Part shown: piece after piece, positions 6,434 to 32,892 of the stretch
Layout of the letters: every line of letters starts with the position of its first letter
Position numbering within the stretch: position 1 is the first letter of the stretch
Source of the DNA: Parapedobacter koreensis
GTDB lineage: Bacteria; Bacteroidota; Bacteroidia; Sphingobacteriales; Sphingobacteriaceae
Length of the DNA: 64,000 nt
NCBI RefSeq assembly: GCF_900109365.1
Contig: NZ_FNZR01000001.1
Coordinates: forward strand, 558,001-622,000
Direction: 5' to 3'
Position numbers and translations under genes: made by a program
Notes under the pieces: model-generated
The model's database searches: none
Told to the model about the DNA's origin: nothing
Seen by the model: only the letters and a program-made list of their open reading frames with translations

Positions 6434-6437
6434 AATT

Positions 6438-9742: not shown

Positions 9743-9753
9743 TAGTTAATTAG

Positions 9754-10499: not shown

Positions 10500-10552
10500 C
10501 AAGATTACACGATTGCCAATAACAAATAATTAACAAAAGATTAACAACGATC
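10500..10552 (-). promoter_or_regulatory. Repeat promoter A: three 11-bp repeats plus -7 box (small secreted protein/susC/susD unit)
   Basis: Plus-strand view: CAAGATTA (10500-10507, reverse of -7 box TAATCTTG), a 12-bp spacer, then three abutting 11-bp units at 10520, 10531 and 10542, all starting TAACAA. The -7 box differs from the phylum consensus TAnnTTTG by one base, and the nearest repeat covers the -33 zone, so a bound activator probably replaces the -33 contact. It lies between the stop of the 10584-12530 gene and the small secreted gene, and is the only promoter-like signal for the susC/susD unit. It matches sites B, C, D and E. Confidence 0.75.
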
Positions 10553-10583
10553 TTAAAATAACCACAACTCACACAACAAGCTA

Positions 10584-12530
10584 TTAATCAACACTTTTAT
10601 TCCAAAAAATAAATGTACCCCGATTTGTAGATGAGACAATTTCCAGCTTGCCGTCACCGTTTAAATCCACAGCTAATAGATCCGATCCGGCACCCGAACG
10701 ATTATGCACCAACTCCGGTTCGAACCGCGCCCCGCCCGGCGCACGGGTATCACGGACCGTGCGGAAGCAATACAATACTGCCGCCCCGTTCGGATCGGGG
10801 TCGAGATGCGTATCCAGGTGCGACCAATACCGCTTTCCGGCGATGAAGTCCGATATGCCATCGCCGTCAATATCGGCGAACGTCGTACCATGCAGCTGCG
10901 AAAATGTAACGCCCCCCGCGTTGTCGGTCGAATAATCGTCCATGATCAGGTGGCGCTGGAACGTTATCTCGCCTGCTTCGTCACGTTGTTGTTCGTACCA
11001 GGCTAAACCAAAGCCATGGGCGTTGAGACTGGTTACGACATCATTGTAGCCATCGCCATTGACATCGTACACCGCCATGATGCTACCGCCCATTCCACCG
11101 CCACGATGGCCGTACCGTCCAAAAGCTACAGGATGGTATGTCCATGTGGAGTTCGCTTCAAGCTGTGCGGGCTGCTCCCACCAACCGTTGGGATTGGTGA
11201 TATCCGGTCGGCCATCACCATTGATATCCCCTACGCCAAAACCATGGGCCGTGTAATATCCTGTATCAGAAACCAAATAGGCTTTCCACGGTTTGGTGGG
11301 ATCCGCGGGGTCAAACTTCGCATATTTCAGCAAGCGGTCTCCACTGGTCCCGTATATAATTTCAGGGCGGCCATCGCCGTCAAGATCAGTAAATACCGTT
11401 ACCTCAGAATTGATGTTGCCGGGAATAACCGCGTGCATATCCCAGCGACGCGATTCACCTTTGGGATTGAGGTATAGCCTGCCAAATGGTGCAGCCGAAA
11501 ATACATCCGTCCAACCGTCGCCATTGAAATCGTACGCATATTGGCAATTCACCTCGGAAAATTGCTGGGAAGGATTGTACGTGACGCCTTGGAAAACCTC
11601 ACGATATGTCGTGTAATCCGGCCCATAGTAAATGTGGGGGCCCGCTACCACATCCATTATGCCATCCCGGTTGAAATCCGCAGCAGCCGAACTGAACGAA
11701 TAATACATATCGCTCAACTGCTGTACGGCAAACCGCGATGATGTCTGCTCCTTAGGTGTAGACCGAAGTGCCAGATCTTTATACTTAAAATCCTTATACC
11801 GCACCTCGACATCGCCTTTCACATATAATGCTATCGGCCCAAAATTCCCAAATTCCGCATCCGCTGCACCACCAGGGCCATTGCCGTCGTTGATGAATCC
11901 CCGCAAGATATTCATGTCCAACACACATTCCAATTGATTCCATTCGTTGGCCTGAAAAGCCGTTTCCGGGCGCGGAATAGGCAACACCGGTCCCAACTGC
12001 CCACCTGCATTCCGTTGGCCACCACCGCCCCCTTGACCGTTGGCTGTGTTCCGTTCATTGGGATCAGGTGGTGGAGCTACCCGCATCATGCCACCAGCAC
12101 GCCGTAAAAGCGTACGGCTCTTCTCCCTGCCTTGCGCATCTATCTCCACCCCGTATGCAGCAGCTTCGTCCGTTTTCAACGACACCAGCACTCCCTTCAT
12201 ACCCGATTCGGTTTGCTCTGCACGGAATAGCACACCCGCTTCTCCATCGCCGTTAATCTTGACCAATGTATTGATGGTCACATCCTGAAACGATCGGTCG
12301 AGCATCAACCAACCTACGGCCGATGTATCGTGCCCCTTGCCTACCAGCTCACCATCCACGGCCTGCCATTCGGCCGTTCCCAAGGCGTTCCAACCCGTCA
12401 AACTGGAGCCCTTAAACTGGTAATCGGGCACAAAACTAAGCCCCCGTCCATTGGTTTCACCCGCCATCTGTCCCCAGGATAGCTGGATAGCACAAACCAT
12501 GGTTATTACGATGTTAAGCATCCTTTTCAT
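10584..12530 (-). CDS. DUF1080 (3-keto-glycoside hydrolase-like) domain plus FG-GAP/VCBS repeat protein
   Basis: Secreted protein (signal ending LSWGQ). Residues about 30-245 form a concanavalin-like DUF1080 domain (SLTGWNALG, LVGKG, YKDFKYKDLALR at its end); members of this family cleave or bind 3-keto-glycosides. Residues about 260-648 form an FG-GAP/VCBS beta-propeller with repeated calcium loops such as DFNRDGIMDV, DFNGDGWTDV, DLDGDGRPEI, DINGDGRPDI, DVNGDGYNDV, DIDGDGISDF and DLNGDGKLEI, seven blades. A Gly/Asn/Gln-rich stretch at about 160-175 lies inside the first domain. It is the last gene of operon B, 9 bp after the TIM-barrel gene. Whether the DUF1080 part is catalytic or only binding is not known. 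Confidence 0.8.
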   Translation of the reverse strand: MKRMLNIVITMVCAIQLSWGQMAGETNGRGLSFVPDYQFKGSSLTGWNALGTAEWQAVDGELVGKGHDTSAVGWLMLDRSFQDVTINTLVKINGDGEAGVLFRAEQTESGMKGVLVSLKTDEAAAYGVEIDAQGREKSRTLLRRAGGMMRVAPPPDPNERNTANGQGGGGGQRNAGGQLGPVLPIPRPETAFQANEWNQLECVLDMNILRGFINDGNGPGGAADAEFGNFGPIALYVKGDVEVRYKDFKYKDLALRSTPKEQTSSRFAVQQLSDMYYSFSSAAADFNRDGIMDVVAGPHIYYGPDYTTYREVFQGVTYNPSQQFSEVNCQYAYDFNGDGWTDVFSAAPFGRLYLNPKGESRRWDMHAVIPGNINSEVTVFTDLDGDGRPEIIYGTSGDRLLKYAKFDPADPTKPWKAYLVSDTGYYTAHGFGVGDINGDGRPDITNPNGWWEQPAQLEANSTWTYHPVAFGRYGHRGGGMGGSIMAVYDVNGDGYNDVVTSLNAHGFGLAWYEQQRDEAGEITFQRHLIMDDYSTDNAGGVTFSQLHGTTFADIDGDGISDFIAGKRYWSHLDTHLDPDPNGAAVLYCFRTVRDTRAPGGARFEPELVHNRSGAGSDLLAVDLNGDGKLEIVSSTNRGTFIFWNKSVD

Positions 12531-12539
12531 TAGGAAATA

Positions 12540-13454
12540 TTATTTTATATTGTTTTTTACGTGTTCGATACCCCATTTGGCTACTTCATCGTAGTCAATA
12601 TCCTGGAATTTGCCACTCCATTGGGCAATCATATACGTGCCTTTAAATCCAGCCTGCTCAGCCAGTTGGATACATTTGTCAAAATCATACGAGACGTGAT
12701 CCATTCGGTCATTAAAATCCACCATTTTAGCGGAAACAATATGAGCATAAGGCAATATCTTAGCCAGGGATTCCATCATGACTTCCGTGGTATACTGGGG
12801 AATATAATTGCCAAAGTCCGGCTCCGTATATACCCCCGACCCCTTGACGATTTGCACATGTTTATCGGCGTCCATCTCTATTCCGAAGTGGTTGGCCGTA
12901 ATGATGGTCAGGTTTTTACGTTTAGCATAACCATTCAGTTCCTTCAACGATTCGATGCTTTTTGCTACCGAACCTTTGGGCGAACCGGGATTGATCCGCA
13001 CACACTCCGCACCAAGAAAAGAAGCTGCATCTATCCAGGCTTTTACATCCGTGATGCTCTGCTGCCGTTCGCCTTCATCGGTAGCAGCCAAATTATAAGC
13101 AATCCGATCTATCTGCACATTAAGCAACGTGGTCTTAGCAGATTTGATTTTATCACGTAGCCTGGCCAAGTAGTCGGGCTCCAATGACTCAAAATGTTCG
13201 TTCCAAAACTCTATTTTGCTTATACCGAATTTATCGCGATGGTATTCGGGCACATCCAGCAAGGTCAGTTCGTTCTTAATCGTATCCCATTCCTTGGGCT
13301 TGGTACGTTCAAAACGATACCGAAACAGCAGCGTGCCGAGCGCAATGCGTTCCATCTTGTCGTTGGGCAATTGGATCTTGCCCAAGGCAGGTGCCACCCA
13401 TGCGGATAATACGATTCCACCAGTTTTGAAAATAAATGTTTTTCTATCCATCAT
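12540..13454 (-). CDS. Exported sugar phosphate isomerase/epimerase-like TIM barrel protein
   Basis: AP-endonuclease-2/xylose-isomerase-like TIM barrel preceded by a hydrophobic leader (FIFKTGGIVLSAWVAPALG), so probably acting outside the cytoplasm. Blocks such as CVRINPGSP, LTIITANHFGIEMD and GFKGTYMIAQWSG match the barrel strands carrying metal ligands in this superfamily. It sits 32 bp after the PQQ enzyme gene and 9 bp before the DUF1080/FG-GAP gene. Such proteins act in 3-keto-sugar pathways as epimerases, isomerases or lyases, which would suit this context; the exact reaction is not predictable. Confidence 0.75.
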   Translation of the reverse strand: MMDRKTFIFKTGGIVLSAWVAPALGKIQLPNDKMERIALGTLLFRYRFERTKPKEWDTIKNELTLLDVPEYHRDKFGISKIEFWNEHFESLEPDYLARLRDKIKSAKTTLLNVQIDRIAYNLAATDEGERQQSITDVKAWIDAASFLGAECVRINPGSPKGSVAKSIESLKELNGYAKRKNLTIITANHFGIEMDADKHVQIVKGSGVYTEPDFGNYIPQYTTEVMMESLAKILPYAHIVSAKMVDFNDRMDHVSYDFDKCIQLAEQAGFKGTYMIAQWSGKFQDIDYDEVAKWGIEHVKNNIK

Positions 13455-13486
13455 TCATGTATTGATTCCGTATTCCCCTTCCTAAC

Positions 13487-15757
13487 TCAATTACCTTTTT
13501 TGGGCAACGCATAGACGATATACCCTTTAGGCACACCAGCTTCATCTTTCGATTTATCTTTCAGGCTACCGACGGAGCATACCACCAGATATTGTTTACC
13601 GTCCACTTCGTACATGGCGGGAAGGCCGCCTGGATTGTTCCTGCCCAAGTCAGTAGACCATAATATACGCCCATCATCCGTATCGTAAGCATATACTCGA
13701 CCGTCCAAGCAAGTGGAAAAAAGCAAGCCTGTTGAGGTGACAACCATTCCCTTGCCCTGCGAACCGTTGGGCATGCTCAAGTCGCTACTGCCGGGTATGC
13801 TGTCATCGTTTCCAAGGGGTATCTTCCATTTGATCTTGCCTTCGTTTAAGTCATAGGCAACGATAAGCGACCAAGGAGGCGTGAGCAGGTTTGGTACCCC
13901 CAGGCCCCAGTTATTGGTTTCGACATATTCAACCCTTGGCCCGGTGTATTCGCTGGGATAGTCGGACATACGCCCGCCTAATGATGGTAAATCAACGGGG
14001 ACACCGCCTGATGCAACTACGGGGCCCTCCGGCAGGTCTGCTTCGCCCCCCTGGTTTCCGGGGCCACGTTGCGCTTCGGGAGTCAGGTATGCATAGATAT
14101 CAGCAATCTCCGTTTCCGTCAGGTGTGGGAAACCGGGCATCCGCCCTTTGCCAACGGCCATGATGCCTTTAAAGGCTTCCGTGTTCACGCGTGTGCTTAA
14201 GTTCACCAGTGTTGTTCCCAATCCATTGATGCCCGCCCGGTTTTCGCCATGGCATGTTTGGCAATGCTGTGCATACAACACCTTTCCTTGCGCCAATCTT
14301 TCAGGAGAAACAACCGGATTGCGCCCGCCACCAAAACCACCGGCACTCCGCGGCGGAGCAGGTTCGCGTTTTTTAAGGCTGTAAAAATCGGCCAGCTCCT
14401 GTGTCTGCACATACACAATGCCCTTTTGAGGATCTGCTGCGGTATTGCCGAAGTTCGCTCCGCCCACTGCGCCCGGATTGGTCACGATTTCATAACTGGC
14501 CGAAAGCGGTTGGAACAAGCCATTCTTTGCCGCAGCCACGCGTGCTGTCCATTTTGTTTTATCTTCTTGAGAAAAATAGGGATTGATGTCATCGACGGTC
14601 ACGATTTGCCGATTGAATGGCGGCACAACGGTCGGAAATGGCTGCGTAGGCCAAGCCTGTTCATCGGGCATATCGCTGGCTGGTACGGGCCGTTCTTCTA
14701 TCGGCCATAACGGTTCGCCGCTAACCCGATCAAATACGAAAAGAAAGCCGTGTTTGGAAGCAATGGCCACTGCATCTATTTTTTTTCCATCGTGGTTGAC
14801 GGTAATTAACTGCGGAGCCGCTGTCAGGTCATAATCCCAGATATCATGATGGACGGTCTGGAAATGCCACAGCCGTTTGCCCGTTCGTGCGTCCAATGCC
14901 AAAATACAATTACCAAATAAGTTGCTCCCCGGCCTATCTGCGCCATCGTAGTCATATGTCGGGGAGCCGATGGGAAAATAGGCAATGCCGCGATCCGCAT
15001 CGACAGAAATTTCACCCCACGTATTGGTACCGCCCACATATTTATAAGCTTCCTCAGGCCAGGTATCATAGCCGTATTCACCGGGATGCGGAATGGTATG
15101 GAACACCCAGACCAACTCACCGGTGATGACATTATAAGCGCGGAGGTGGCCGGGACCTGAAAACAGGTTTTCGCCGGGAGCAGACCCCAGCAGAATCAAA
15201 TCCTCAAATACCTTCCCCGGAGTGGTCGATGTCGCTCGACCAAATGTAGCCGGGTCGCGATCCAACCCCTGCTTAAGGTCTACATACCCGCCATTGCCAA
15301 AAGTCGTAATGGATTTGCCCGTATTGGCATCAATTGCTTGCAAGGTATTATTGAGGCAAATCAACAGCCGCTTTTCTTTCTTATCCTTGCTTTGCCAAAA
15401 ATTAACGCCCCGTTGGATAATTCCCCGCAAATTGGCATGTATCCACAGTTCCTTTCCCGTGACAGCGTCGATGGCAACCAACGAATTATTTTTGGCCAGC
15501 ACATACATCACACCGTCCACAATGACCGGGTTGAACCGATAATTTACATTGTCATCGGTGGGGTATACAAAAGCGACTTCCAATTGATCGACATTATCTT
15601 TGGTAAACTCTTGGTAGTCGACATATTTCGAGTGGTCAGGCCCACCCCCATAGTCATTCCATTCCTTATACCGTGTATTGTCATTCGAGCATCCACAGCA
15701 TATCATAGCAAACAAAAAGGTTGAAAAAACCGTAATCCTAAACATGATTATCTTCAA
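13487..15757 (-). CDS. PQQ-type quinoprotein dehydrogenase with internal cytochrome c domain, lipoprotein (operon B)
   Basis: Eight-bladed PQQ beta-propeller resembling membrane glucose dehydrogenase and related quinoproteins, with a lipobox (CCGCSND). Family blocks include ITGELVWVFHTIPHPGEYGYDTWP, PGSNLFGNCILALDARTG and TVHHDIWDYDL. A mono-haem cytochrome c domain is inserted late in the propeller: C499-Q-T-C502-H503, with PGFPHLTETEIADIYAYL as its C-terminal helix and a Met in GRMPGF as likely axial ligand. Predicted role: oxidation of a sugar or alcohol in the periplasm with electrons passed to the respiratory chain. First gene of operon B, preceded by repeat promoter B. No PQQ synthesis gene is in the window. 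Met5 is an alternative start. Confidence 0.85.
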   Translation of the reverse strand: MKIIMFRITVFSTFLFAMICCGCSNDNTRYKEWNDYGGGPDHSKYVDYQEFTKDNVDQLEVAFVYPTDDNVNYRFNPVIVDGVMYVLAKNNSLVAIDAVTGKELWIHANLRGIIQRGVNFWQSKDKKEKRLLICLNNTLQAIDANTGKSITTFGNGGYVDLKQGLDRDPATFGRATSTTPGKVFEDLILLGSAPGENLFSGPGHLRAYNVITGELVWVFHTIPHPGEYGYDTWPEEAYKYVGGTNTWGEISVDADRGIAYFPIGSPTYDYDGADRPGSNLFGNCILALDARTGKRLWHFQTVHHDIWDYDLTAAPQLITVNHDGKKIDAVAIASKHGFLFVFDRVSGEPLWPIEERPVPASDMPDEQAWPTQPFPTVVPPFNRQIVTVDDINPYFSQEDKTKWTARVAAAKNGLFQPLSASYEIVTNPGAVGGANFGNTAADPQKGIVYVQTQELADFYSLKKREPAPPRSAGGFGGGRNPVVSPERLAQGKVLYAQHCQTCHGENRAGINGLGTTLVNLSTRVNTEAFKGIMAVGKGRMPGFPHLTETEIADIYAYLTPEAQRGPGNQGGEADLPEGPVVASGGVPVDLPSLGGRMSDYPSEYTGPRVEYVETNNWGLGVPNLLTPPWSLIVAYDLNEGKIKWKIPLGNDDSIPGSSDLSMPNGSQGKGMVVTSTGLLFSTCLDGRVYAYDTDDGRILWSTDLGRNNPGGLPAMYEVDGKQYLVVCSVGSLKDKSKDEAGVPKGYIVYALPKKGN

Positions 15758-15888
15758 TAGTTATAATTGGTTTATAGGCTTCCCCTTGTTAAATCGATTT
15801 AGTCAAGCCAATCTACTAACGCTATCAAGACACTCGTGCTTTATTAGAGAATCAAAATTTATACAATTGGTCGCTCAAAATTCGATGT

Positions 15889-15941
15889 CAAGATTAAGCT
15901 GGAAGGCATAATAAAGCATTAACAAAGCATTAACAACGTTG
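15889..15941 (-). promoter_or_regulatory. Repeat promoter B: three 11-bp repeats plus -7 box (operon B)
   Basis: Plus-strand view: CAAGATTA (15889-15896, reverse of TAATCTTG, identical to site A), a 12-bp spacer, then units at 15909 (TAATAAAGCAT), 15920 (TAACAAAGCAT) and 15931 (TAACAACGTTG). This is the cleanest copy. The predicted leader to the start at 15757 is about 130 nt. The rest of the region between 15758 and 16025 has no gene. Confidence 0.8.
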
Positions 15942-16025
15942 AATTGATAGTCAGCATAAACACAAAAAACTCATTACCAACAGCATAAATAACAATTCAA
16001 TCAACGTAACTTTGTTGTTAACCTG

Positions 16026-17264
16026 TTAGGTTCGCTTCACGACGATTACCGTCAGGATGGCTGAAGATAGCAGGGCGACCGACATCAAGATATAAGATGC
16101 CCCAAAACCACCGGTAGCGCCATTCAGATAGCCCACGATATACGCACCACCAAAAGAGCCTAATGCACCCATGCTGTTTATTAATCCTAACGCGCCGCCT
16201 GCTACATTTCGTGGTAAAATTTCTGTGATTACAGCAAAGAAAGGCCCATAGGGTGCATACATTGCACCTCCTGCGACCACCAGCAAGGTGAAGGACAGCC
16301 AAAAATTGCTCGTTCCAAGCAGGTATGAGCCGTAAAATGCCACAGCACCAATGAGCAGGAACGGCCAAATGAAAATTTTCCGGTTTAGTGTTTTATCCGA
16401 ATAATGAGAGGCGGCCAGCATGGCGATAATCGCCAGGATATAAGGTACCGCCGACAACCATCCGGTAGTCACGATATCCATGTTGGGTGCCGCTTTGATA
16501 ATGGAAGGAAGCCACATGACAAAGCCATATAGGCCAAGGCTCCAAAGCAGGTACTGCAAACACAGTAAAATCACTGACTTTGAACGAAACGCCTCTGCAT
16601 AATTTTTTACCGCTTTGATGCCTTGCTGTTCTTCCCTTAGTTGTTTTTCCACGGCGTCTTTCTCCATTTCGGTCAACCAAGTAGCGTCTTTGGGCTTCTC
16701 ATCAATCATCTTCCACCAAATCAATGCCCACACGAGGGCGGGAAGGCCTTGGAGGATAAACATCCAACGCCAGCCTAGTGAGTCAACCAGGTAACCCGAC
16801 AACACCGACATCCAAAGTACAGTTGCCGGATTGCCCAATATCAAAAAGGTATTCGCCCGGGAACGTTCCTGTTTGGTAAACCACTGGCTCAATAGGATCA
16901 GCATGGCAGGCATCACTGCACTTTCCACCACGCCCAACATAAACCGGATAAAAATCAATGCGGATACATTATTGACCATTCCGGTGGCCGTTGCAAAGCC
17001 CCCCCATAATATCAACGACCAGAAAATGAGTTTCTTTGCACTTTTATGCGCGGCATAATGGGCACCCGGGATTTGAAAGAAAAAATAGCCCAGAAAAAAA
17101 AGTGAGCCCAAGAGGGAGGACATCCCCGGCGTGATGTTCAGATCGTCGGCCATGCCGCCTGCAGCGGCAAAGCCGAAATTGGCCCGGTCGAGATACGCCA
17201 AGCTATAGGTAATGAAAACAATCGGTATAATGCGATACCACCTTGATTGCGCTAAGCTACTCAT
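16026..17264 (-). CDS. MFS transporter, anion:cation symporter (sugar-acid) family
   Basis: Twelve-helix major facilitator protein of 412 residues. The N-terminal block YSLAYLDRANFGFA matches the ACS family signature (DRxN in helix 1) of glucarate, galactonate, hexuronate and phthalate transporters, and FIRFMLGVVESAVMPAMLILLSQWF matches helix 4. These carriers import sugar acids with protons across the inner membrane. Last gene of operon C, 12 bp after the SnoaL-like gene, so it likely imports the product of the exported dehydratase and PQQ enzyme of the same operon, for example a 2-keto-3-deoxy acid. The true substrate is inferred. Confidence 0.85.
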   Translation of the reverse strand: MSSLAQSRWYRIIPIVFITYSLAYLDRANFGFAAAGGMADDLNITPGMSSLLGSLFFLGYFFFQIPGAHYAAHKSAKKLIFWSLILWGGFATATGMVNNVSALIFIRFMLGVVESAVMPAMLILLSQWFTKQERSRANTFLILGNPATVLWMSVLSGYLVDSLGWRWMFILQGLPALVWALIWWKMIDEKPKDATWLTEMEKDAVEKQLREEQQGIKAVKNYAEAFRSKSVILLCLQYLLWSLGLYGFVMWLPSIIKAAPNMDIVTTGWLSAVPYILAIIAMLAASHYSDKTLNRKIFIWPFLLIGAVAFYGSYLLGTSNFWLSFTLLVVAGGAMYAPYGPFFAVITEILPRNVAGGALGLINSMGALGSFGGAYIVGYLNGATGGFGASYILMSVALLSSAILTVIVVKRT

Positions 17265-17276
17265 CCGTGTCTCTTT

Positions 17277-17726
17277 TTAAATCTTGACCGCCTGACGGGC
17301 TACCAACCGCAATTTGCCTTCTTTTTGGATCCATACCTGCAATACTTTCAGGTTGGTTGTCCCCGGTTCTTTTCCCTCATCGGCGGTATGGCCGAATAGT
17401 TCGTGCCTGACAATAGCGGTATTGCCTATTACATTAATCGTCTGTGCCGAAAACTCCAGGCTTGTAAATTTAAACTTGCCGCTTACCATGGAAGCAATAC
17501 AGGTGGCTTGGTCTTCAATCAAGCCGTTGGAGTGCCCGTACGTCAAGGATTCGTCTAATAGTTCTTCAAATACTTCCTGGTTTGGATTCAGCATCACTTC
17601 CCGGAAGGATGCCACGGCCGCAGCCACTGTAGCCTCTGTTGGGCCGCTCTCATTGGTTTTATCCGTCTGCTGGTTACAACTGGTAGTTATCACTACGGCT
17701 GTCAATACGATTAATGCTTTTTTCAT
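17277..17726 (-). CDS. SnoaL/DUF4440-like (NTF2 fold) lipoprotein
   Basis: Lipoprotein (signal ending ITTSCNQ) followed by one NTF2-like cone (about residues 30-149). Features typical of DUF4440 proteins are SFREVMLNPNQEVFEELLDESLTYGHSNG and the final strands LKVLQVWIQKEGKLRLVARQAV. The family includes small isomerases, dehydratases and non-enzymatic binding proteins. It lies 24 bp after the mutarotase-like gene and 12 bp before the MFS gene in operon C, so a role on the same sugar acid, such as a lactone or keto form, is possible but not shown. Confidence 0.75.
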   Translation of the reverse strand: MKKALIVLTAVVITTSCNQQTDKTNESGPTEATVAAAVASFREVMLNPNQEVFEELLDESLTYGHSNGLIEDQATCIASMVSGKFKFTSLEFSAQTINVIGNTAIVRHELFGHTADEGKEPGTTNLKVLQVWIQKEGKLRLVARQAVKI

Positions 17727-17750
17727 AATGCTATAGATTTAAATTTATAA

Positions 17751-18716
17751 TTAATGATGGTATTCGTATGTTATTGTCCAGCCGAATGTTTGTCCGGGTT
17801 CAACCCGCACATCAATATAAGGTTCTGGGCAAACGGTTGTTGGAGACGACCAGAAAACCATTTTGGCAATGGGCTTGTCTCCACTTATTTTCACGCTGGC
17901 ACCACTTTTGGTATTTTGCACTTCAAGCGCATAGTCAACTAATCGCCCGTCAGCCAAATCAGGAAAGTAGGCTTGTTCGCCTTGTTGCAATTCCCTTAAA
18001 AAAACAATTTCATTGCCTTCCAGACCAACAACGTCCCCCAATCCTTTGGCTCCTTGCGGAGACAAGGTGTCTCCCGGAATCTTTACGCGGTAACCCGGTC
18101 CCGTGTGCTCGTTGTCGATCACGAAGAAATTATGGTTATAGACCCGTGTTTCAATCACCTCGTCACCGGTGTTTTTCAACGTATGTGTCAATACCATTCT
18201 GGCTTCCCCGGTTGGTAGGCTGACGATTTTGCTGTATACATAGGGGTAGTCCGAGTTTTTAAGTACGTGCGTAAACGACACTTGCTGTTCACCGGTTTCG
18301 ACATGCCATTCCCCCGGGTCTGCCAGGGTATACCGTCTGTGGAAAAGATAAGCTCTTTCATCTGGCCGCACCAAGTTTCCCACGCCAATCTTGACAAATT
18401 GATCGCCGGCCTGCGCTTGTTCAAATCCCAGGGGCTCAAACTCCTCGACTGGGCCGACAATGCCATCGTGTCCCAACGGGTCATGTGTGGCAAACCACTC
18501 GCCATGGTATTGGTGCCCGGCATATTCAAGCACTGGAATTACCCCCGACCAATCAAACCTTGTCCCCCTGTAGTACCCTTCATTTGGATCGGGTAAATAA
18601 AGTGTTGCCGTTACCAGTCCGTTGGTTATTTCAACGTGCGGAAAAGGGCGATCGTCCGGATTTGCAACCACAGGCAGTGCCCCTATCATCAACGCTAACA
18701 AGCCAGGTATCTTCAT
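17751..18716 (-). CDS. Secreted mutarotase-like beta-sandwich protein
   Basis: 321-residue exported protein (MKIPGLLALMIGALPVVANP). The mature part is rich in beta strands, with YYRGTRFDWSGVIP and a later HNFFVIDNEHTGPGY block. This pattern belongs to galactose-mutarotase/aldose-epimerase-like proteins often annotated only as hypothetical. H222 and E229-type residues in the second block could be catalytic, but I cannot confirm this. The start at 18716 was chosen over an upstream in-frame one at 18797 because it begins the signal peptide and avoids overlap with the preceding gene (stop at 18733). As a mutarotase it would supply the correct anomer to the PQQ enzyme encoded just upstream. Confidence 0.6.
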   Translation of the reverse strand: MKIPGLLALMIGALPVVANPDDRPFPHVEITNGLVTATLYLPDPNEGYYRGTRFDWSGVIPVLEYAGHQYHGEWFATHDPLGHDGIVGPVEEFEPLGFEQAQAGDQFVKIGVGNLVRPDERAYLFHRRYTLADPGEWHVETGEQQVSFTHVLKNSDYPYVYSKIVSLPTGEARMVLTHTLKNTGDEVIETRVYNHNFFVIDNEHTGPGYRVKIPGDTLSPQGAKGLGDVVGLEGNEIVFLRELQQGEQAYFPDLADGRLVDYALEVQNTKSGASVKISGDKPIAKMVFWSSPTTVCPEPYIDVRVEPGQTFGWTITYEYHH

Positions 18717-18732
18717 CAGGATAAAGATGCAA

Positions 18733-20907: not shown

Positions 20908-20921
20908 CAGGCAACATCGAT

Positions 20922-22295: not shown

Positions 22296-22349
22296 AATGG
22301 TTAATGGTTATAAATTGGTGTTATGCGATTATTGTCGCAAAAAACTTTT

Positions 22350-22402
22350 CAAGAGTACGGCTGACCCGATAACAAAGTATTAACAAAAGCTTAATTGCGG
22401 GT
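22350..22402 (-). promoter_or_regulatory. Repeat promoter C: three 11-bp repeats plus -7 box (operon C)
   Basis: Plus-strand view: CAAGAGTA (22350-22357, reverse of -7 box TACTCTTG), a 12-bp spacer, units at 22370 (TAACAAAGTAT), 22381 (TAACAAAAGCT) and 22392 (TAATTGCGGGT, degenerate). The predicted leader to the dehydratase start at 22295 is about 50 nt. It lies in the 146-bp gap after the regulator gene. Confidence 0.78.
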
Positions 22403-22441
22403 CATTAAGCGGGCCTTTATTTATAAAAATCGCTGCTGTAC

Positions 22442-24997
22442 CTATGAAAGTACCTTCTTATAATCTTTGCCAAACTCCTCGCCGTAAATCTGACGATATT
22501 CATTGCAGAAATTTTCAAACGTCTGGGTAGCCAGTGAGTGATTGCCCATATAAGCCAGTGCCTTGCATTTAATCGTCATGGCCTCCTCATGCACCGGATC
22601 AAAATAGAAAATATAATTGGCAAGCTCGACCATGAACTCTGGGTCTTCGGCAATCTGTACACTTTCCGCGAAACGCATGTAGGTATTGATCACTTGGATG
22701 GAAGCCTCTGCCTTAAACGAGTCCAACCATTCATAATCCGTTTCGGAAAGGAAACCACCCCGCTGCACAATGACCGACAACTCCTTGATACGCTCCTTAT
22801 CCAATGCATCCTTGTTGGTAACGATGGCTAAATAATTCTTATAGTCAATATAAATATCATCATCGGCATCAAATCGCCAATAGCCCGTCTCTTTGGAAAT
22901 TTTCGCGCGTCCCATTCGCTCTAATATGGTATTGATTTTAGCAATGTTGACCGAACGGTTATTACGGGCGCTTTCGGTAGATTTGTCAAACCAAAATTGT
23001 TCGGTCAATTTTTCAGAACTGATACCCCGCCCCCAACGGATAGTATGCAGCAATACCACCAAAAACAGCTCTTTGATAAGCGGGGTGAAACTGCGTGTGA
23101 TGTCTGTTCCTCCGGTATCAAACAATTGCAAATCACCGCCGAAGAGAAATATACTGCTCTTATATTGCTGTTTTTCGATAGGTGCGGAGGAACGCATCTG
23201 CTCTTCCTTAGGTCGCACAATAGGCGACTGGGAATCGATAGGCGGAGCCGTATCCTTCGGATCCTTTTTGCGTCTCAATACGTATAATCCTACCAACACC
23301 ACTACTCCCAACCCAAGTCCGAGGTAGGCCATATTTCGGGTCAACCATTCATTTTGCGGGCTGTTCTTCGCCGTGTTATATGGTAGTGGCGGACTGTATA
23401 AGGAATAGATCTTGGCTGTGGTGACGTCTATATCGTCATAGTACAGCGTCACAGCCGCAAACCGTTTGCTATCTGGGCAATAATATAAATCCGAGAAGGA
23501 ACGAATATCATGAAACAAATAAGGAATCGCACCCCCAAGTTTTTTTAATTCAGGCTGGGTCAGCGAACCGGCAACCAATTGCAAATTGGCGTTATATTGG
23601 TGCTTTGGGAATATCAATCCATAATATTGATTGGTGGCTTCATCGATGACCAACGAATTGGCCCATACAAAATCGTCCTCGCCGGGTTCAAGTTCATATT
23701 TTTTTGAGAATGTTCGACTTTTAACATCAAAAAATTGTAAATCATACAAGTTGCGTGGGTTGAGCATTTGCTGGCCCGAGACGCTTCCATAGCCACCGAT
23801 AATATACGCTCCGTTTGGGGTGGCTCCCAAGGCAGCGAGGTACCGTGGAATCAACGGATCACCCGTTGCCTCAATATTGTGCCATGTACCATTCAAGCTG
23901 TATCGATGAATTTCGTTTTTGAACAAAAAATGTCCATATCCCCCGATAAAATACAAGCTACTGTCTGCTGGTGAATAAAACTTATTGAAATGAAGGTAGC
24001 TTGTACCTACTCCGGGGTAGTTAAAATTTTCGGACCAACTCAGTGAAGCAAAATCAAACACAGAAACAATGCGCTGATCGATACATATATTCAACAGTTG
24101 ATTGTGTGCCGTATCGAAAAAAGATTGGTTACCGTTCACTAACAACAAGGGACCGGAAGCGTATTTGAAAACATGGCGTTGTCCCGTTGGTACGTGGATT
24201 CGTAGCAGCGAGTCCCTGCCCACGATGAATACACTTTCTGTCTGGGGATCAAAAGCCGCACTTGCTCGTCCGCCCACCGTGATGTCCTGAAGCAATCCCC
24301 ACTCATAGTGCGATCGCCTAATCCATTGCGGGTTTCTGACCATGGCGGTCATTCCCTTCACTGCATCATCGATTTCCGTACCCTCTTCTTCATCCAACGG
24401 CCAATGGTGGGCCAAGCGATCGCCTTGCCGGACTTGTATATCCCGGATTTTCATCGCAGGTACGTCGGTGGTCTTAAACTCCTTATAGTTGTTGTATCCG
24501 AACAATACTTTCACGCAACCCCGTGGATCAATGGTCAACTGTTCATGGAAAACCTTGTCGCCACAGGTCACGATGACCTGTTTCGATTGTGCGTCCAATT
24601 TGATGGTTATTGGTACCCATTCATTGAACAAAGTGTTGGAATCGATATTAAATGCAATGTTGGAGAATTTCTCACCCATTACAATTTTAAAATGTTTCTC
24701 AACATTATCAAGCCGGTCATACAGCAAATCGATGTTAGTTTGATCATTTACGATGATCCGTACAACATAACCAAAATAATCCGACCGGTTCGGCACAAAG
24801 GAGAGATCAAATGACAGTTCGATATCATCATCAAAACAGATTTGTCCATCGCTGCTTAAGTCCAATCCCGTTCGCTGATCCGACACCGTTTCATGGCTGG
24901 CAAAACCCAACCCATACTGTGCATTAACAACTAGTGGAGATACGCATATACACCCTACGATGCACCACAGAATAATATGAAGAGTCCACGATCTCAA
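22442..24997 (-). CDS. Membrane-tethered LamG/Kelch sensor with SARP-like winged-helix output domain
   Basis: One-component transmembrane regulator, 851 residues. Signal peptide (1-26); concanavalin/LamG-like domain (about 30-230); Kelch/galactose-oxidase-like propeller (about 235-545, with FIGGYGHFLFKNEIHRY and YIIGGYGS blades); one membrane helix (about 556-574) followed by RRKK as stop signal; a flexible linker; an OmpR-type winged helix (about 620-712, with SSEKLTEQFWFDKSTESARNNRSVNIAKINTILE as the helix-turn-helix part); and an all-helical C-terminal repeat region (about 725-851) like the BTAD domain of SARP activators. A sugar-binding sensor outside and DNA binding inside are implied. 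SARPs bind 11-bp-spaced direct repeats, which is what the five promoters around it show. Confidence 0.8.
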   Translation of the reverse strand: MRSWTLHIILWCIVGCICVSPLVVNAQYGLGFASHETVSDQRTGLDLSSDGQICFDDDIELSFDLSFVPNRSDYFGYVVRIIVNDQTNIDLLYDRLDNVEKHFKIVMGEKFSNIAFNIDSNTLFNEWVPITIKLDAQSKQVIVTCGDKVFHEQLTIDPRGCVKVLFGYNNYKEFKTTDVPAMKIRDIQVRQGDRLAHHWPLDEEEGTEIDDAVKGMTAMVRNPQWIRRSHYEWGLLQDITVGGRASAAFDPQTESVFIVGRDSLLRIHVPTGQRHVFKYASGPLLLVNGNQSFFDTAHNQLLNICIDQRIVSVFDFASLSWSENFNYPGVGTSYLHFNKFYSPADSSLYFIGGYGHFLFKNEIHRYSLNGTWHNIEATGDPLIPRYLAALGATPNGAYIIGGYGSVSGQQMLNPRNLYDLQFFDVKSRTFSKKYELEPGEDDFVWANSLVIDEATNQYYGLIFPKHQYNANLQLVAGSLTQPELKKLGGAIPYLFHDIRSFSDLYYCPDSKRFAAVTLYYDDIDVTTAKIYSLYSPPLPYNTAKNSPQNEWLTRNMAYLGLGLGVVVLVGLYVLRRKKDPKDTAPPIDSQSPIVRPKEEQMRSSAPIEKQQYKSSIFLFGGDLQLFDTGGTDITRSFTPLIKELFLVVLLHTIRWGRGISSEKLTEQFWFDKSTESARNNRSVNIAKINTILERMGRAKISKETGYWRFDADDDIYIDYKNYLAIVTNKDALDKERIKELSVIVQRGGFLSETDYEWLDSFKAEASIQVINTYMRFAESVQIAEDPEFMVELANYIFYFDPVHEEAMTIKCKALAYMGNHSLATQTFENFCNEYRQIYGEEFGKDYKKVLS

Positions 24998-25035
24998 TGC
25001 CTTATTATAGATTTATGAATTGCAATATATCAATA

Positions 25036-25081
25036 ACCAATCCATACACCAAACAAATGAAAGTTTAGTGTATGGATTGGT
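25036..25081 (-). terminator. Strong stem-loop between the haem lipoprotein gene and the regulator gene
   Basis: Perfect 14-bp inverted repeat (25036-25049 with 25068-25081), one mismatch, then 4 bp more (AAAC/GTTT) and an 8-nt loop. It lies 94 bp after the stop of 25175-27382 and 39 bp before the regulator start, on the minus strand. There is no clear T run after it, so it may be a terminator needing other factors or an mRNA-stabilising stem. It has the same build as the stem at 3594-3629. Confidence 0.6.
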
Positions 25082-25174
25082 CAATTGCATTCGCCATTCA
25101 AAAATAGGCAATTTAAACCAATATGCGGTATAATATTATGGATATGCCACGATAGCAGTCAATTCGCTTTATCC

Positions 25175-27382: not shown

Positions 27383-27521
27383 AAAATGATTGTTTAGTTA
27401 GTTTACATTGCTTGTCTTAAGGATCGCCGGGCCAATGGGGTTCTAACCAACTATTTAGTTGTAGAAAATGGACAGCACTCTTGCCGCCCACTTTCCAAGA
27501 TAGGCCTTGATCGACAGTATA

Positions 27522-30500
27522 TTAGTTGACTTGTTTTAAATCGCCACTTATCAATAAAATTTGTCCGGCCTTGGTTTTAAAAGTGGCTTTCTCATTGCCC
27601 AATCGCAGGGTTAGTCGTCCCCCTTTTTCTGCCAAGACACGTGCTTCTTTCAATTTACCGGCTTCCCATGTAAGGTCAATGACAAAACCACCGCGTGCGC
27701 GCAGCCCTTTGATGGAGCCTTGCATAAGTACTGTTGGCAACGAAGGCAGCAAGTGCACCTCAAACTGGCCGTCTTTAAGCGGTACATGGCTCTGCACCAG
27801 CATCTCGGCAATGGCCGCCGTAGCACCGAAGTTGCCGTCAATCTGGAACGGTGGATGATTGTCAAACAGGTTGGGCAACGTCTTCTCACGCAAGAGCACA
27901 CCCAACAGCTTGAACGCATGGTCGCCATCATGCAAGCGGTTCCACATGTTGATTTTCCACGCCAATCCCCAACCGGTACCATCATCTCCCCGTGCGATCA
28001 GCGTCTTTTTGGCTGCTTCCGCAAGCTCGGGGGTTCCGGTCACCGATATCTGATTGCCGGGATGGAGTGCAAACAAATGGGAAGTATGCCGGTGATGCGG
28101 TTCCACTTCCTGATAATCTTCTACCCATTCCATGACCCGGCCGGTGGCTTCGCTGATGCGGATGGGTGCCAAGCGGGAGAGTGTTTTCAAGCACGTATCC
28201 CGGAAGGTTTTATCAATATCCAGAATTTTCGCAGCGGCAATACAGTTGGTCAACAAATCATGGATAATTTCCAGATCCATGGTAGCACCGTACGTAAAGA
28301 CGGAGTGTTCTCCATTCGGCAACACGAACGCATTTTCCGGTGAATAGGACGGATTAGTCACCAACTTCCCGGCTACAGGTGTCCTTGGAGGGGCTTCTAC
28401 CAAGAAATCAAGGATAAATTCAGCCGCTCCTTTCATCAGTGGATAAGCCCGCTGCCGCAGGAATGCGGTATCCAATGTATAGCAGTAGTGTTCCCAAGGG
28501 TGTTGGGCCAACCAAGCAGCCCCTACGGGCCAGATACCTTGTGGCCCGTCTGCGGGTGCCGTGAATCCCCATGCGTCCGTCAGGTGGTGTACTACCCAGC
28601 CATCGGCGCCATATAATACCTTTGCGGTACGTTGGCCCGGTTTTACCAAGGCCTCCGTCAGATCAAACAACGGCAAATGCGTTTCCGATAGGTTCGTAAT
28701 CTCCGCAGGCCAATAGTTCATTTGGAGGTTGATGTTGGTATGATAATCTGCATTCCAGGGTGGATTCATCTGCCACGCCCACAATCCTTGTAGGTTGGCA
28801 GGCATCGTGCCTGGTCGCGAACTCGCGATCAATAGGTAACGCCCGTATTGAAAAAACGTTTCGACCAAAGATGGGTGGGGCTGGCCTGCTTTCCTTGCAT
28901 CTTCCAGCAATTCGTCTGTCGCCAATTCCCGGGCCTTCTCATCTTGTGCGCCCAATTCAAACTGCACACGGTTGTAGTAATGCTGATGTTCCCGGATATG
29001 GGCCGCCTTCACGGCTTCATACGATTGGCCCATCGCATGGGCTATGATGTTGGCACAACTTTCCTCCGGAATACCGGGGAAATCGAGCATACCGTCACTG
29101 ATATGTTCAAGACCGGGATAATTTGTTGCACCGGCGATGTACAACGTCAGGGTATCGGCACCTTCCACCGATAGGACGTGGTTATGAACCTGGACATGCC
29201 CCCCCGTGGTCACGGCTTTTATTTGTGTGGCAAAGCGAAGACCGCGGGCATTTCCGTCACCGTCTTTAATGGGAAGCCTGCCTTTCAGCAACAACGACGA
29301 TGCATCGGTGGGATGTGGCATTGTTTCAGTATCTTGCTGGCGCCGCAAGGTGAATGAATTGCTGATTTTCCCACCGTCGCTTGCTGTAAACCGTACGATG
29401 ATGGCATTATGTTCGGATGAGGCAAAGCTTTCACGAGTATACCAGACGCCATCGTGTTTATAGCGCACGGTGACCACACCTGTGGTCAAATCGAGGCTCC
29501 GCGTATAGGATTCTGCGTTAAGGTGTGGCGTATCAAACCACAATTCAGCAAGTGATTGATAGGGCTTGACACCTTGTGGACGCCCCATCATCGTTTGCTC
29601 CGCCAACTTCACGGCTTCATTGTTTTTGTCTTCAAATAACAAGCGCCGTACTTCGGGCAATGTCTCCAGTGACTCCGGGTTATTTGGATCCAGTGCATAG
29701 CCATCCCATAGGGAACTTTCATTCAACTGAATCCGTTCATCGGCCACACCACCGAATACCATGCCACCTAACCGGCCATTGCCGATAGGTAGCGCCTCTT
29801 CCCATACTTTTGCGGATTGTTTATACCATAGTATGTTGCGCCCCGATGGGCGCTCACCAGCACCAGAAAACGACGCCCGATCCAGCCACTCGGACCGGAT
29901 ATCACCGGTACGTGAACTGGCTGGGGAAGTCTGCTCCACGGCTTTTACGATAAAATCAACAATAGGTGCGGGATTTGGGAAACTATGCGGATGGTGTTTG
30001 AAACCACGTTTCATCATCACGGTGATGTCACCCCCCTGTGCCTTCACCTTTTTTTCAAAAGCCAGCGTCTGTGTCTCCGGATCTACCGCCTCATCCTCGT
30101 CTGCGCAGAGGACAAGGATGGGGTAGCCTCCACGTACGATGTCTTCAATGTTGTCCATCGGGCTTCCGGTAAACTGATCAAGCGCTTGGTCGGTCTCCAG
30201 TCCATAAGCCTTGCGGATGTCTGCCGTAAGTGGGCGTCCCTGCTTAGCGTAAGCACGCATATCAAGCAATGGATTGTCAATATATACACCAGCCACCTTT
30301 TCTGGATTCGCCGCTGCCCAGTTCAACGCATACACGCCCCCACGGCTCATCCCTTCAAAAGCGGCCTTACGGTTCAATCCAGCATTGTATAGGATCGCAT
30401 GAAATTCGTCCCACAGTGCAATAGCCTCTGGGTTTCCCAATAATTCGGCGGCGTCGCAATAGGCGATATGGAAACCACGTTCCAGCAATGCAATATCGGC

Positions 30501-31337
30501 CTGCGGTTCGTGCCCCCAAAAGCGGGCCCGCCACACCCAGGGTCTGTCATTGGCCGTCCGTTTAGGTTGCACCACTTTACAAGCCCGTCCGTTCAATGAG
30601 AATTCAGCAGTTGTATAGCCATAAAAGGAAGAGGTGGTATACGGGCGTTCAAGGTGCTCGAAAAGATCATAAGCACCATCACCTTCCTGAGTTGCTTGCT
30701 GAAACAGTCGCTTAGCAATGATGCTTGCGGCTTCTTCACCGGGGTGGATCTTGTCTATATACAGATCGGACCTATCAATGAGCAAGGAATGCATGTCCAG
30801 CACTTCAACATCCTCTTCCAAGGCAACCTGCTGCATAGCTGGAATGATGTCTTCCACAATCACCTTATCCCATATCTGGTTGGTATCGGTTTCAAACGAT
30901 TTAAAAGGAAGCATCAGTATGACTCGTGGCTGCGACGGCAAGCGCCTAAACGACTGTACCATTTCGCGGCAGTCGTCGATCAATTCATCATAGTGCGGTC
31001 GGTTGATCGCCTTTGAGTCATTACCCCCCAAATCAATAAAAACCAAATTCGGGTTGAGCGCCAGCGCATCCCGGTAAGCCTGGGTGTTCCAATATGGCGA
31101 ATCTCCTTTACGGAGCAGGGTGGTGCCCCCAACGCCAAAATTAGTTACTTGGTAACGCCTGCCCAATAAGGCTTGCAATTGCCCGGGATAGGCTCGTTCA
31201 CTTGGATTTGTGATGCCATGCCCCCCGGTAATGCTGGCACCGACGCATGCCACTTTTACTTGTGCCATTGTGCCCAGTCCACTGAGGCAAAACAGACCTA
31301 TAAAAAGATAAACTTTTAATTTCAATAGGATTACCAT
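27522..31337 (-). CDS. Three-domain fusion: GDSL/SGNH esterase, alpha/beta hydrolase, GH95 alpha-L-fucosidase-like
   Basis: 1271-residue secreted protein. Signal peptide to about residue 25. SGNH/GDSL hydrolase at about 27-215: nucleophile S35 in [12 protein letters not shown] block, and D195/H198 in DKIHPG. Alpha/beta hydrolase at about 235-470: nucleophile S331 in GMSRGG, acid in CADEDEA, His in [10 protein letters not shown]95 at about 500-1271: [28 protein letters not shown] and [12 protein letters not shown] at the start, [18 protein letters not shown] and [25 protein letters not shown] in the barrel, and a final beta-sandwich. GH95 enzymes are alpha-1,2-fucosidases or galactosidases. 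Esterase plus glycosidase suggests an acylated, fucose- or galactose-containing glycan. Driven by repeat promoter D. Confidence 0.85.
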
Positions 31338-31361
31338 ATTTGTGTTTATAATTAAGTGCTG

Positions 31362-31413
31362 CTAAAATAGGCGCTCCCATTAAAAAAAGCTTAACAAAGA
31401 ATTAATCAACGCA
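31362..31413 (-). promoter_or_regulatory. Repeat promoter D: three 11-bp repeats plus -7 box (fusion hydrolase)
   Basis: Plus-strand view: CTAAAATA (31362-31369, reverse of TATTTTAG), an 11-bp spacer (one shorter than in the other four), units at 31381 (TAAAAAAAGCT), 31392 (TAACAAAGAAT) and 31403 (TAATCAACGCA). The -7 box is close to the start at 31337, giving a leader of only about 20 nt. Confidence 0.65.
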
Positions 31414-31422
31414 TTTTCTTCC

Positions 31423-32703
31423 CTAAAAATCATTAAAATTCCACGGTACCCGATAAGGGCGCGATACCATTTGATTTGCCGCAGCATGGTCAAATACTTC
31501 TTTCTTCGGGTCCCACTTTACGTCAGCCTGCAACTCATACACAATATTCACCGCATTGCATACTGACGCAGTGCGGTGGCCAATCTCCACATCAGCAACC
31601 GGACGGCTCCTCTTCTTAATGGCATCTATCCAATCCTGGTAATGGTTGTCACTTTGGTAAAGCCGCTTGTCCGTAGGTTTGAGCGTTTGTTCCACCAATG
31701 AAGTTGGCGTTGACCGTAAAAACTCCCGGGATACTTCGATGGTTCCCTCGGTACCGATGAATTGTATGGCATTGCCCGGCCCCCACTGCTTATGGTACAC
31801 CGTTATGCCATTGGCATATTGGAATGAAGCCCCTTCCTGTGCCAGTGGATCTTGGGGGGCATGGAAAGACACCGGGCCTGATTCATCCATACCCAAGGCC
31901 CACTGCACAATATCAAACATGTGCGCCCCCCAATCGGTCACATATCCGCCACCGAAATTACGGTAGTTCCGCCAGCCAGCCCAATCTTTGTCATTTTCAA
32001 TAGGAGGAGCCAACACGGGGTGATACCCGCGATAAAGCGATGGTCCAATCCAAGCATTCCAGTCCAGGTAATCCGGCACGGGTTGGGACGGCAAATCACA
32101 TTGTCGCACTGGCCCACCGACGGATACATTTATTTCTCTGATATCACCGATATAGCCATTCGTAATCAATTCGCAGGCATGACGGAAAGGTTTCCATGAG
32201 CGCTGCATACTGCCGGTCTGTAATACCCGGTTATATTTTCTGACAGCGCTGACCATCGCCCGTCCTTCGGCAATGGTCAGTGCCAAAGGCTTCTCGCAAT
32301 AAATATCTTTACCCATTTTCGCTGCATCGATACAGATTTGCGCATGCCAGTGATCGGGCGTCGCTACCACCACGGCATCAATATCCTTTCGCCCCAGCAG
32401 ATCGCGGTATTGGGCATAGGCCGTTACGGATGTTGCTACTTTCTTGTCGTTGGCCTCGGTCGCACGTTCCACAAAACGAGCCAGTTTTTTAGCGTCCACA
32501 TCACTCGCTGCCAATACAAGCGTTTCAGGGCAACGATTGATATTGCCCAACAGGCCCATTGCTTGTTTGCCGACACCGATATACCCCAACGTCATCCGGT
32601 CGCTCGGTGCCAAAAAACCCTTGCCTCCCAATACATGCCTTGGTAGTATGGTAAAAGCGGCAGCCCCCAAAGCCATGTTTTTAATAAATGTGTTTCTTTT
32701 CAT
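31423..32703 (-). CDS. Exported Gfo/Idh/MocA-family oxidoreductase
   Basis: NAD(P)-dependent sugar oxidoreductase fold of 426 residues: Rossmann start LGYIGVGKQAMGLLG, CEKPLALT (the family's Lys in EKP), and a C-terminal alpha/beta domain with GGGYVTDWGAHMFDIVQWALG, whose Asp/His pair is catalytic in relatives. A hydrophobic leader (FIKNMALGAAAFTILPRHVLGG) indicates export; it lacks a double arginine. Exported members with bound cofactor occur in pathways that oxidise glycosides at C3 or remove groups from glycans. Transcribed alone or with the fusion hydrolase from repeat promoter E. Confidence 0.88.
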   Translation of the reverse strand: MKRNTFIKNMALGAAAFTILPRHVLGGKGFLAPSDRMTLGYIGVGKQAMGLLGNINRCPETLVLAASDVDAKKLARFVERATEANDKKVATSVTAYAQYRDLLGRKDIDAVVVATPDHWHAQICIDAAKMGKDIYCEKPLALTIAEGRAMVSAVRKYNRVLQTGSMQRSWKPFRHACELITNGYIGDIREINVSVGGPVRQCDLPSQPVPDYLDWNAWIGPSLYRGYHPVLAPPIENDKDWAGWRNYRNFGGGYVTDWGAHMFDIVQWALGMDESGPVSFHAPQDPLAQEGASFQYANGITVYHKQWGPGNAIQFIGTEGTIEVSREFLRSTPTSLVEQTLKPTDKRLYQSDNHYQDWIDAIKKRSRPVADVEIGHRTASVCNAVNIVYELQADVKWDPKKEVFDHAAANQMVSRPYRVPWNFNDF

Positions 32704-32777
32704 TACTGCGATCTGTTAAGTTTATAAAGTGGTTAACCGTATCCTTCTATGGGATAAGTGTTTATAATCAAGATTCG

Positions 32778-32830
32778 TAAAGATAGCATTTACATGTTAA
32801 AAAAATCTTAATCCCCCATTAATCATAAGG
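32778..32830 (-). promoter_or_regulatory. Repeat promoter E: three degenerate 11-bp repeats plus -7 box (Gfo/Idh/MocA gene)
   Basis: Plus-strand view: TAAAGATA (32778-32785, reverse of -7 box TATCTTTA), a 12-bp spacer, units at 32798 (TAAAAAAATCT), 32809 (TAATCCCCCAT) and 32820 (TAATCATAAGG). This is the weakest repeat set, but its spacing to the -7 box equals that of A, B and C. It shares the intergenic space with the divergent padR gene. Confidence 0.55.
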
Positions 32831-32880
32831 AATTTTCCATCTTTTATATACATAATTTTCTTATGCATGTCAGGAAATTA

Positions 32881-32888: not shown

Positions 32889-32892
32889 CATC

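Follow-up and report, generated by a model that had tools for sequence, protein, structure and literature searches.

A 64,000-nucleotide stretch of Parapedobacter koreensis DNA (assembly GCF_900109365.1, contig NZ_FNZR01000001.1, positions 558,001 to 622,000; hereafter the window) carries five promoter-proximal sites in which three 11-bp direct repeats stand upstream of a -7-like box. We read these sites as SARP-type operators, probably recognized (we put this at roughly 0.8) by a membrane-anchored protein encoded at 22442-24997, in which a kelch propeller is predicted to be joined across a membrane helix to a SARP-like DNA-binding domain and which we call the kelch-SARP regulator. SARPs are known from actinomycetes, where they activate antibiotic clusters. 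Computed here were the sites and their conservation, their linkage to the protein, its predicted SARP fold and the unit letters, which differ beside a paralogue and in a distant regulator clade.

Geometry, rarity and conservation of the five sites

An initial annotation of the window had described the five sites as sharing a common build directed toward minus-strand transcription, and all five are present and read on that strand (Table 1). In the direction of transcription each can be written as TTAA-N7-TTAA-N7-TTA followed after 11-12 bp by a -7-like box. The spacers first given as 12, 12, 12, 11 and 12 bp are correct: counted back from the TA of its -7 box, the TTA elements of each of sites 1, 2, 3 and 5 begin at 37, 26 and 15 bp, and those of site 4 at 36, 25 and 14 bp. 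Under one choice of unit frame, the 14-15 bp from the start of the last TTA to the box would equal a heptamer plus 7-8 bp. No TTG was seen outside the repeats at the usual -33 distance in the five sites, and the conserved box agrees with TAnnTTTG, the -7 form of sigma-A promoters (PMC9723704). It is from this combination of a SARP-like build, no outside -33 TTG and a sigma-A-type -7 box that we propose a membrane-anchored SARP. The sigma-A form of the box also speaks against control of the units by an extracytoplasmic function (ECF) sigma factor pair, with the repeats incidental; ECF systems are named as an open possibility for Bacteroidota polysaccharide-utilization loci (PULs) in PMC3878776, but no ECF sigma domain was matched among the 27 window proteins scanned, a subset of the window genes, and we give this explanation next to no probability.

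The arrangement is rare. Three TTAA units at 11-bp spacing with a -7 box 12-15 bp further on matched four times in the window, at sites 1, 2, 3 and 5 (the gap range of this pattern excludes site 4), and in none of 200 local dinucleotide shuffles. Across the whole genome (5,547,756 bases), TTAA-N7-TTAA-N7-TTA-N11..13-TAnnYT has six exact matches, five of which are sites 1-5, and the same pattern read backwards has none. Both core patterns were composed after the sites had been seen, and therefore the telling figure is that just one further match exists in 5.5 Mb. Equal frequency in random DNA, the objection foreseen in the initial annotation, was found neither in the shuffles (0/200) nor with the reversed genome pattern (0) nor in random loci of related genomes (0/20, described below). 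When the repeats alone were sought with up to three mismatches, the genome gave 12 matches versus 3 in the control, the best three being sites 1, 2 and 4, with site 3 level with two other places at two mismatches. The sixth core-pattern match is at 267427-267469 of contig 14, about 23 bp before a 327-aa open reading frame (ORF) on the same strand.

Five of nine Parapedobacter genomes contain the repeat-plus-box pattern, with 11 matches in total and none in the control. A weight-matrix scan together with comparison of orthologous promoters, the check proposed at the outset, recovered sites 1-4 in other species of the genus, with repeats and box kept and the spacer varying in sites 1-3. P. indicus has counterparts of sites 1, 2 and 3, P. 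defluvii of sites 1 and 2, and P. pyrenivorans of sites 1 and 3; P. luteus has a site with site-2-like letters before susC. Site 4 recurs in all four of these species, its 1-bp shorter spacing being kept in all five; in the upstream alignment, another coding region separates it from the gene for glycoside hydrolase family 95 (GH95) in P. defluvii and P. indicus. The treatment of the five sites as one set thus holds for sites 1-4 but not fully for site 5, since three orthologous promoters of the Gfo gene (P. luteus, P. defluvii and P. indicus) keep the -7 box TATCTTTAC and not the triple repeat. For this reason site 5 is the weakest of the five.

Association of the sites with a candidate membrane-anchored regulator

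The regulator protein was found in the same five of nine Parapedobacter genomes as the sites (the other four gave no match at E<=1e-10 among the at most six first-look candidates scored per genome), a co-occurrence expected 1 time in 126 by chance if the genomes were independent. At the level of the family (399 genomes), the pattern was present in 58 genomes with 76 matches, versus 15 for the control, and kelch-SARP homologues were encoded in 13 of 20 hand-picked loci around such matches. Genomes with a close regulator had a pattern match in 30 of 73 cases versus 28 of 326 for the others; outside the genus, the corresponding figures were 25/68 and 28/322.

Loci chosen by protein, some from genomes that had also appeared in the family pattern search, were assessed for the presence of sites. 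These 56 loci represent 56 of 91 close matches (E<=1e-84), with 17 others covered in the window or in earlier regions and 18 outside the count. A matrix trained on nine Parapedobacter sites identified 56 distinct sites in 39 of the 56 loci, with none in reversed sequence scored at the same threshold; with the threshold set to 16 it gave 74 matches versus 2 reversed. Core plus box was present in 41/56 loci versus 0/20 random loci from the same genomes, which were of similar GC content (41.5% versus 42.6%), and on reversed sequence it occurred 0 times in the protein-chosen loci and once in the random ones. The period is sharply defined, as 63 TTAA triples were spaced at 11 bp and 0-4 at each other spacing from 6 to 20; assuming that the kelch-SARP protein reads the sites, the 11- or 22-bp direct-repeat period of SARPs is present. 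A sequence-agnostic scan for triple repeats at 77% identity was noisy, the 17 found at 11-bp spacing being outnumbered by 22 at 9 bp. The -7 box is likewise positioned: T[AT]nnYT[TC]G falls at an offset of 10-12 in 28 of the 56 sites and three times at all other offsets from 0 to 30 combined, the strict form TAnnYTTG being scarce (3/56) and looser boxes such as TTTATTTG common. A gene start is found no more than 300 bp from 53 of the 56 sites, and one site lies within an ORF; 16 of 21 regulator clusters, collapsed at 60% identity, have a site. Ten downstream proteins, picked for variety among the 56, comprised a SusC type, GH3, GH92, GH2, two DUF5703/GH95-like proteins, a carbohydrate esterase, a ROK protein, a GH99-like protein (below the cut-off) and one without a match. 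A relative of the regulator's domain is found in 136 of 399 family genomes. The regulator family belongs mainly to this group, because only 6 of 296 genomes in a phylum sample, the source genome included, carry the domain.

The architecture of the 851-aa protein was approached through structure prediction. The full-length AlphaFold model is poor (pLDDT confidence score 58.7) and served solely for element order and the propeller match; it places a beta-sandwich first, then the propeller, the membrane helix and last the winged helix, with best matches to kelch domains. The kelch-like region matches Pfam below the cut-off, and the C-terminal part is conserved. For the last 245 residues (607-851), predicted from an alignment of six sequences, the best model reached a pLDDT of 87.3. 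Its Foldseek matches to the PDB at E<=0.001 are six chains only, all AfsR or EmbR (8hvr_I, E 2.2e-5), and VIA-align scored Z 15.4 to AfsR (8k60_I, 228 of 245 residues aligned) and 14.5 to EmbR (2fez), the next, unrelated match being at 8.2. The predicted structure thus combines the winged helix and BTA helical domain of SARPs. Searches of Pfam, NCBIfam and PDB sequences with all 851 residues returned weak kelch matches or chance ones, the SARP fold being visible by structure only, so that the protein would be a SARP by predicted fold and operator and not by sequence family, curated models failing to recognize the domain.

PhoB boxes are 11-bp direct repeats upstream of a -10 element. The window sites share this repeat length and position class and the genome encodes 14 Trans_reg_C proteins, as would suit a conventional two-component response regulator of the OmpR/PhoB family reading the sites, but all 14 are encoded outside the window, and on the same contig the closest is about 256 kb from site 5. 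The kelch-SARP gene, which is not among the 14 and in whose product no receiver domain was matched, tracks the sites across species, a comparison run for kelch-SARP alone. We consider such a regulator unlikely. The Pho box itself, the first thought prompted by the 11-bp form, was rejected on the grounds that no PhoB-type regulator is linked and that the targets are glycan genes. Two further regulator genes of the window, AraC-type (38157-39101) and PadR-type (32863-33240), both lie less than 30 kb from sites and might be proposed as their readers. Yet among roughly 40-kb stretches compared from four relatives, a search at >=45% identity found AraC in none, PadR in P. luteus only and kelch-SARP in all four. 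Moreover, the AraC-type hybrid regulators of Bacteroides are described in PMC3878776 as using paired 12- to 16-bp sites 5-9 bp apart, and a reader of either type seems highly improbable.

Variation in the repeat letters follows the regulators. Searching the source genome with the regulator protein gave three matches, itself included. One paralogue, on contig 18 (27% identity), lies behind its own susC-type gene, which is preceded by a TTAA triple with the same repeat spacing and different unit letters. Two loci of intermediate regulators have TTAA..AAAA units. At the loci of distant regulators the Parapedobacter matrix (0/20) and core plus box (0/20) found nothing, and a search for heptamers at lag 11 identified TTAACCC-N4-TTAACCC with a third TTAA 12 bp on, beside a divergent gene, in 14 of the 20; this pattern was derived from the same, probably orthologous loci, which makes the 14 not independent. 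It was absent from 56 close loci and 20 control loci, and the two adjoining genes tested both match GH76. Near one regulator from another family of the class there is a TTAAG triple. The 11-bp consensus offered initially therefore survives in its TTAA core, conserved every 11 bp, but not in its flanking letters (TTTG in the window), which vary between regulator clades.

This variation also bears on whether the repeats could be AT-rich, UP-like or bent-DNA promoter elements without a dedicated protein. TTAA-rich tracts are plausible near promoters in AT-rich intergenic DNA; against this stand the six core matches in 5.5 Mb, five of them clustered in the window, the 0/20 among random loci of similar GC, the sharp 11-bp period and the unit letters (TTAATnnTTTG, TTAA..AAAA or TTAACCC) that follow regulator clade, leaving this a very unlikely explanation.

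Apart from the triple repeat not being conserved at site 5, several results weigh against reading the sites as operators of a kelch-SARP regulator. Among family genomes bearing the pattern, 28 of 58 are without a close regulator, and 15 of the 56 close regulator loci are without core plus box. Cross-genome tallies ignore relatedness, and given the few candidates scored, the absence of the protein from four Parapedobacter genomes is less than absolute. The five C-terminal models have mean pLDDT values of 87, 80, 57, 57 and 46, the best of them dipping below 50 at residues 67-73. The VIA-align note records a typical best Z of 14 for five mostly helical models that lacked a clear match; a Z of about 14 can therefore arise by chance and is by itself no proof, so that it is the distance to the next match and the Foldseek E-values that count most. 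The window protein matches no Pfam family, BTAD and Trans_reg_C being unmatched at E<=10; each was found in just 2 of 13 relatives, sub-threshold, with best E-values of 0.054 and 0.091, and a profile search of PDB sequences with the regulator returned no SARP.

Taken with the evidence above, kelch-SARP proteins are best read as putative membrane-anchored one-component activators of polysaccharide-utilization genes. The periplasmic beta-sandwich and kelch part would sense a breakdown product of the target glycan, allowing the cytoplasmic SARP domains to align head to tail on one DNA face, one per 11-bp repeat, as SARPs do. These domains would fill the -33 zone, given a last TTA that begins 14-15 bp ahead of the -7 box, and, by analogy with AfsR structures, may offer sigma region 4 a landing place that replaces the -33 element, switching on susC/D and oxidative sugar-breakdown operons. 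The early suggestion of an activator that replaces the -33 contact, with all contacts on one face, is supported in that it fits both the sites and the SARP mode of action as set out in published reports (PMC10936776, PMC5930380).

Predicted targets and further features

The genes preceded by the sites (Table 1) include, in unit 2, a dehydrogenase with PDB sequence matches to quinohemoprotein alcohol dehydrogenases and, in unit 3, a dehydratase with PDB sequence matches to ManD-family proteins. From the whole set (GH95 fusion, pyrroloquinoline quinone (PQQ) dehydrogenases, ManD-family, Gfo, isomerase-like and 3-keto-disaccharide hydrolase proteins) one might guess that a glycan bearing fucose or galactose is broken down oxidatively. 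The GH95 and GDSL domains would point to polymers that are fucosylated or acetylated as candidate substrates. The protein encoded at 10584-12530 joins a 3-keto-disaccharide hydrolase domain and FG-GAP repeats, beside the sugar isomerase-like and PQQ-cytochrome dehydrogenase genes. Overlapping the PadR gene, 33228-33965 encodes a 245-aa protein with no Pfam match and a weak NCBIfam match to MPN157 (E 0.00085, below the cut-off).

At L086:5730-17412, a locus of a Dysgonamonadaceae metagenome-assembled genome, a 1585-aa open frame lies between two kelch-SARP homologues; this frame seems, from labels assigned by eye, to join GDSL-, hydrolase-, GH43- and GH95-like parts and recalls the GDSL-GH95 fusion of the window. 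A well-conserved promoter with a partial fit to the pattern (TTGGAAATTAATTGTTAATTTTTT.TTAA...GATATTTTTG) is found at L159:5637 and in similar matches in nine family genomes; within the 11.5 kb of L159, the sole such promoter locus examined, there is no kelch-SARP gene.

Table 1. Operator sites, predicted target genes, candidate regulator and related loci (window positions unless stated otherwise).
Feature	Position	Strand	Content	Context or basis
Site 1	10500..10547	(-)	repeats 10519-10547; -7 box TAATCTTG 10500-10507	before small-protein gene 9754-10203 and susC/susD
Site 2	15889..15936	(-)	three 11-bp repeats; -7 box TAATCTTG	before PQQ dehydrogenase/AP_endonuc_2/3-keto-disaccharide hydrolase genes, 15757 down to 10584
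Site 3	22350..22397	(-)	three 11-bp repeats; -7 box TACTCTTG	between regulator gene and ManD-family/PQQ/DUF4440/MFS genes, 22295 down to 16026
Site 4	31362..31408	(-)	three 11-bp repeats; -7 box TATTTTAG, 1 bp nearer	before GDSL-hydrolase-GH95 fusion 27522-31337
Site 5	32778..32822	(-)	TTAA triple exactly in register; -7 box TATCTTTA	before Gfo/Idh/MocA gene 31423-32703
Unit 1	4499..10203	(-)	small protein (no Pfam match), susC, susD	Pfam
Unit 2	10584..15757	(-)	PQQ-cytochrome dehydrogenase, sugar isomerase-like TIM barrel, 3-keto-disaccharide hydrolase with FG-GAP	Pfam
Unit 3	16026..22295	(-)	ManD-family dehydratase, PQQ-cytochrome dehydrogenase, unknown, DUF4440, MFS	Pfam
Target 4	27522..31337	(-)	GDSL + peptidase_S9-like + GH95 fusion	Pfam
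Target 5 (weaker)	31423..32703	(-)	Gfo/Idh/MocA oxidoreductase	Pfam
Kelch-SARP regulator (candidate)	22442..24997	(-)	851 aa	adjoins site 3
Regulator, signal peptide	residues about 1-26			
Regulator, beta-sandwich	residues about 30-221			
Regulator, kelch propeller	residues about 233-534			
Regulator, membrane helix	residues about 547-576			
Regulator, SARP-like domain	residues about 610-851		winged helix and BTA-like helices	
Paralogue locus	contig 18, 775900-795800; stretch L260, 1751-1795 and 7843-10401		regulator and TTAA triple	
Distant kelch-SARP clade	loci L284-L299, e.g. L284:12392-12445		TTAACCC direct repeats	

Comparison with known regulators

Direct repeats of 11 bp are the binding sites of SARP activators, as described for AfsR; the bound protein stands in for the -35 contact, and the nearest repeat is reported at about 8 bp from the -10 element (PMC10936776). 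The main operator of PimR consists of three heptamer repeats with 4-bp spacers, of which at least two are required (PMC5930380). The window system resembles Streptomyces SARPs in its direct repeats 11 bp apart and in a predicted winged-helix and BTA fold that extends over nearly the entire domain. It also shares three repeats with PimR; its nearest repeat would lie about 8 bp from the box if the heptamer is counted from TTA. In contrast to AfsR, in which the SARP domain is N-terminal, that of the window protein is predicted to be C-terminal, following a signal peptide, beta-sandwich, kelch propeller and membrane helix. Other differences from Streptomyces SARPs are the Bacteroidota -7 box, targets that are glycan genes rather than antibiotic clusters and a divergence too great for Pfam models. 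This operator form is thus not new to bacteria, since abutting 11-bp direct repeats, of which the main PimR operator has three, are already known as a SARP-type operator in Streptomyces. For Bacteroidota, where the initial annotation knew of none, a literature search, conducted mostly at listing level, found no description of such an operator with a membrane-anchored regulator. What is new is the occurrence in Bacteroidota together with a membrane-anchored candidate regulator.

The mycobacterial EmbR, whose DNA-binding and BTA part has a similar fold (Z 14.5), is soluble and carries an FHA domain, whereas the window protein appears to fuse a membrane sensor directly. ToxR and CadC are one-component regulators with a membrane-tethered winged helix of the OmpR type, placed N-terminally with the sensor at the C-terminus; the window protein reverses this domain order, and a BTA-like domain follows its winged helix. 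Hybrid two-component systems (HTCS) also regulate PULs as single membrane proteins, often ones with a periplasmic propeller, and carry histidine kinase, receiver and AraC domains; the window protein is predicted to resemble them as a single-protein membrane regulator with a propeller, but Pfam matched none of these three domains in its 851 residues. The SusR-like regulators of Bacteroides control PULs, bind a ligand in the periplasm and have their DNA-binding part at the C-terminus (PMC3878776), features that the window regulator would share. It differs from them in operator layout, as predicted SusR operators consist of two sites 67 or 77 bp apart (PMC3878776), in contrast to the three abutting 11-bp units of the window. 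The TAACTGA heptamer repeats of Beggiatoaceae, for which a post-transcriptional role is proposed, were considered as a precedent and set aside, nothing of the window design being seen in the accessible text of that report (PMC4679880).

We think it quite likely that these proteins constitute a further class of Bacteroidota glycan regulator beside HTCS, SusR-like and ECF systems, one in which the periplasmic kelch propeller connects directly to a SARP domain and this domain activates -33-less promoters by aligning on three repeats spaced by about 11 bp, with each clade having its own unit code (TTAATnnTTTG, TTAA..AAAA or TTAACCC). If so, the clade codes could let regulons be predicted from sequence, a regulator would be named for many PULs without an assigned one, and the SARP mode of activation would extend from the antibiotic clusters of actinomycetes to the breakdown of sugar polymers in Bacteroidota.

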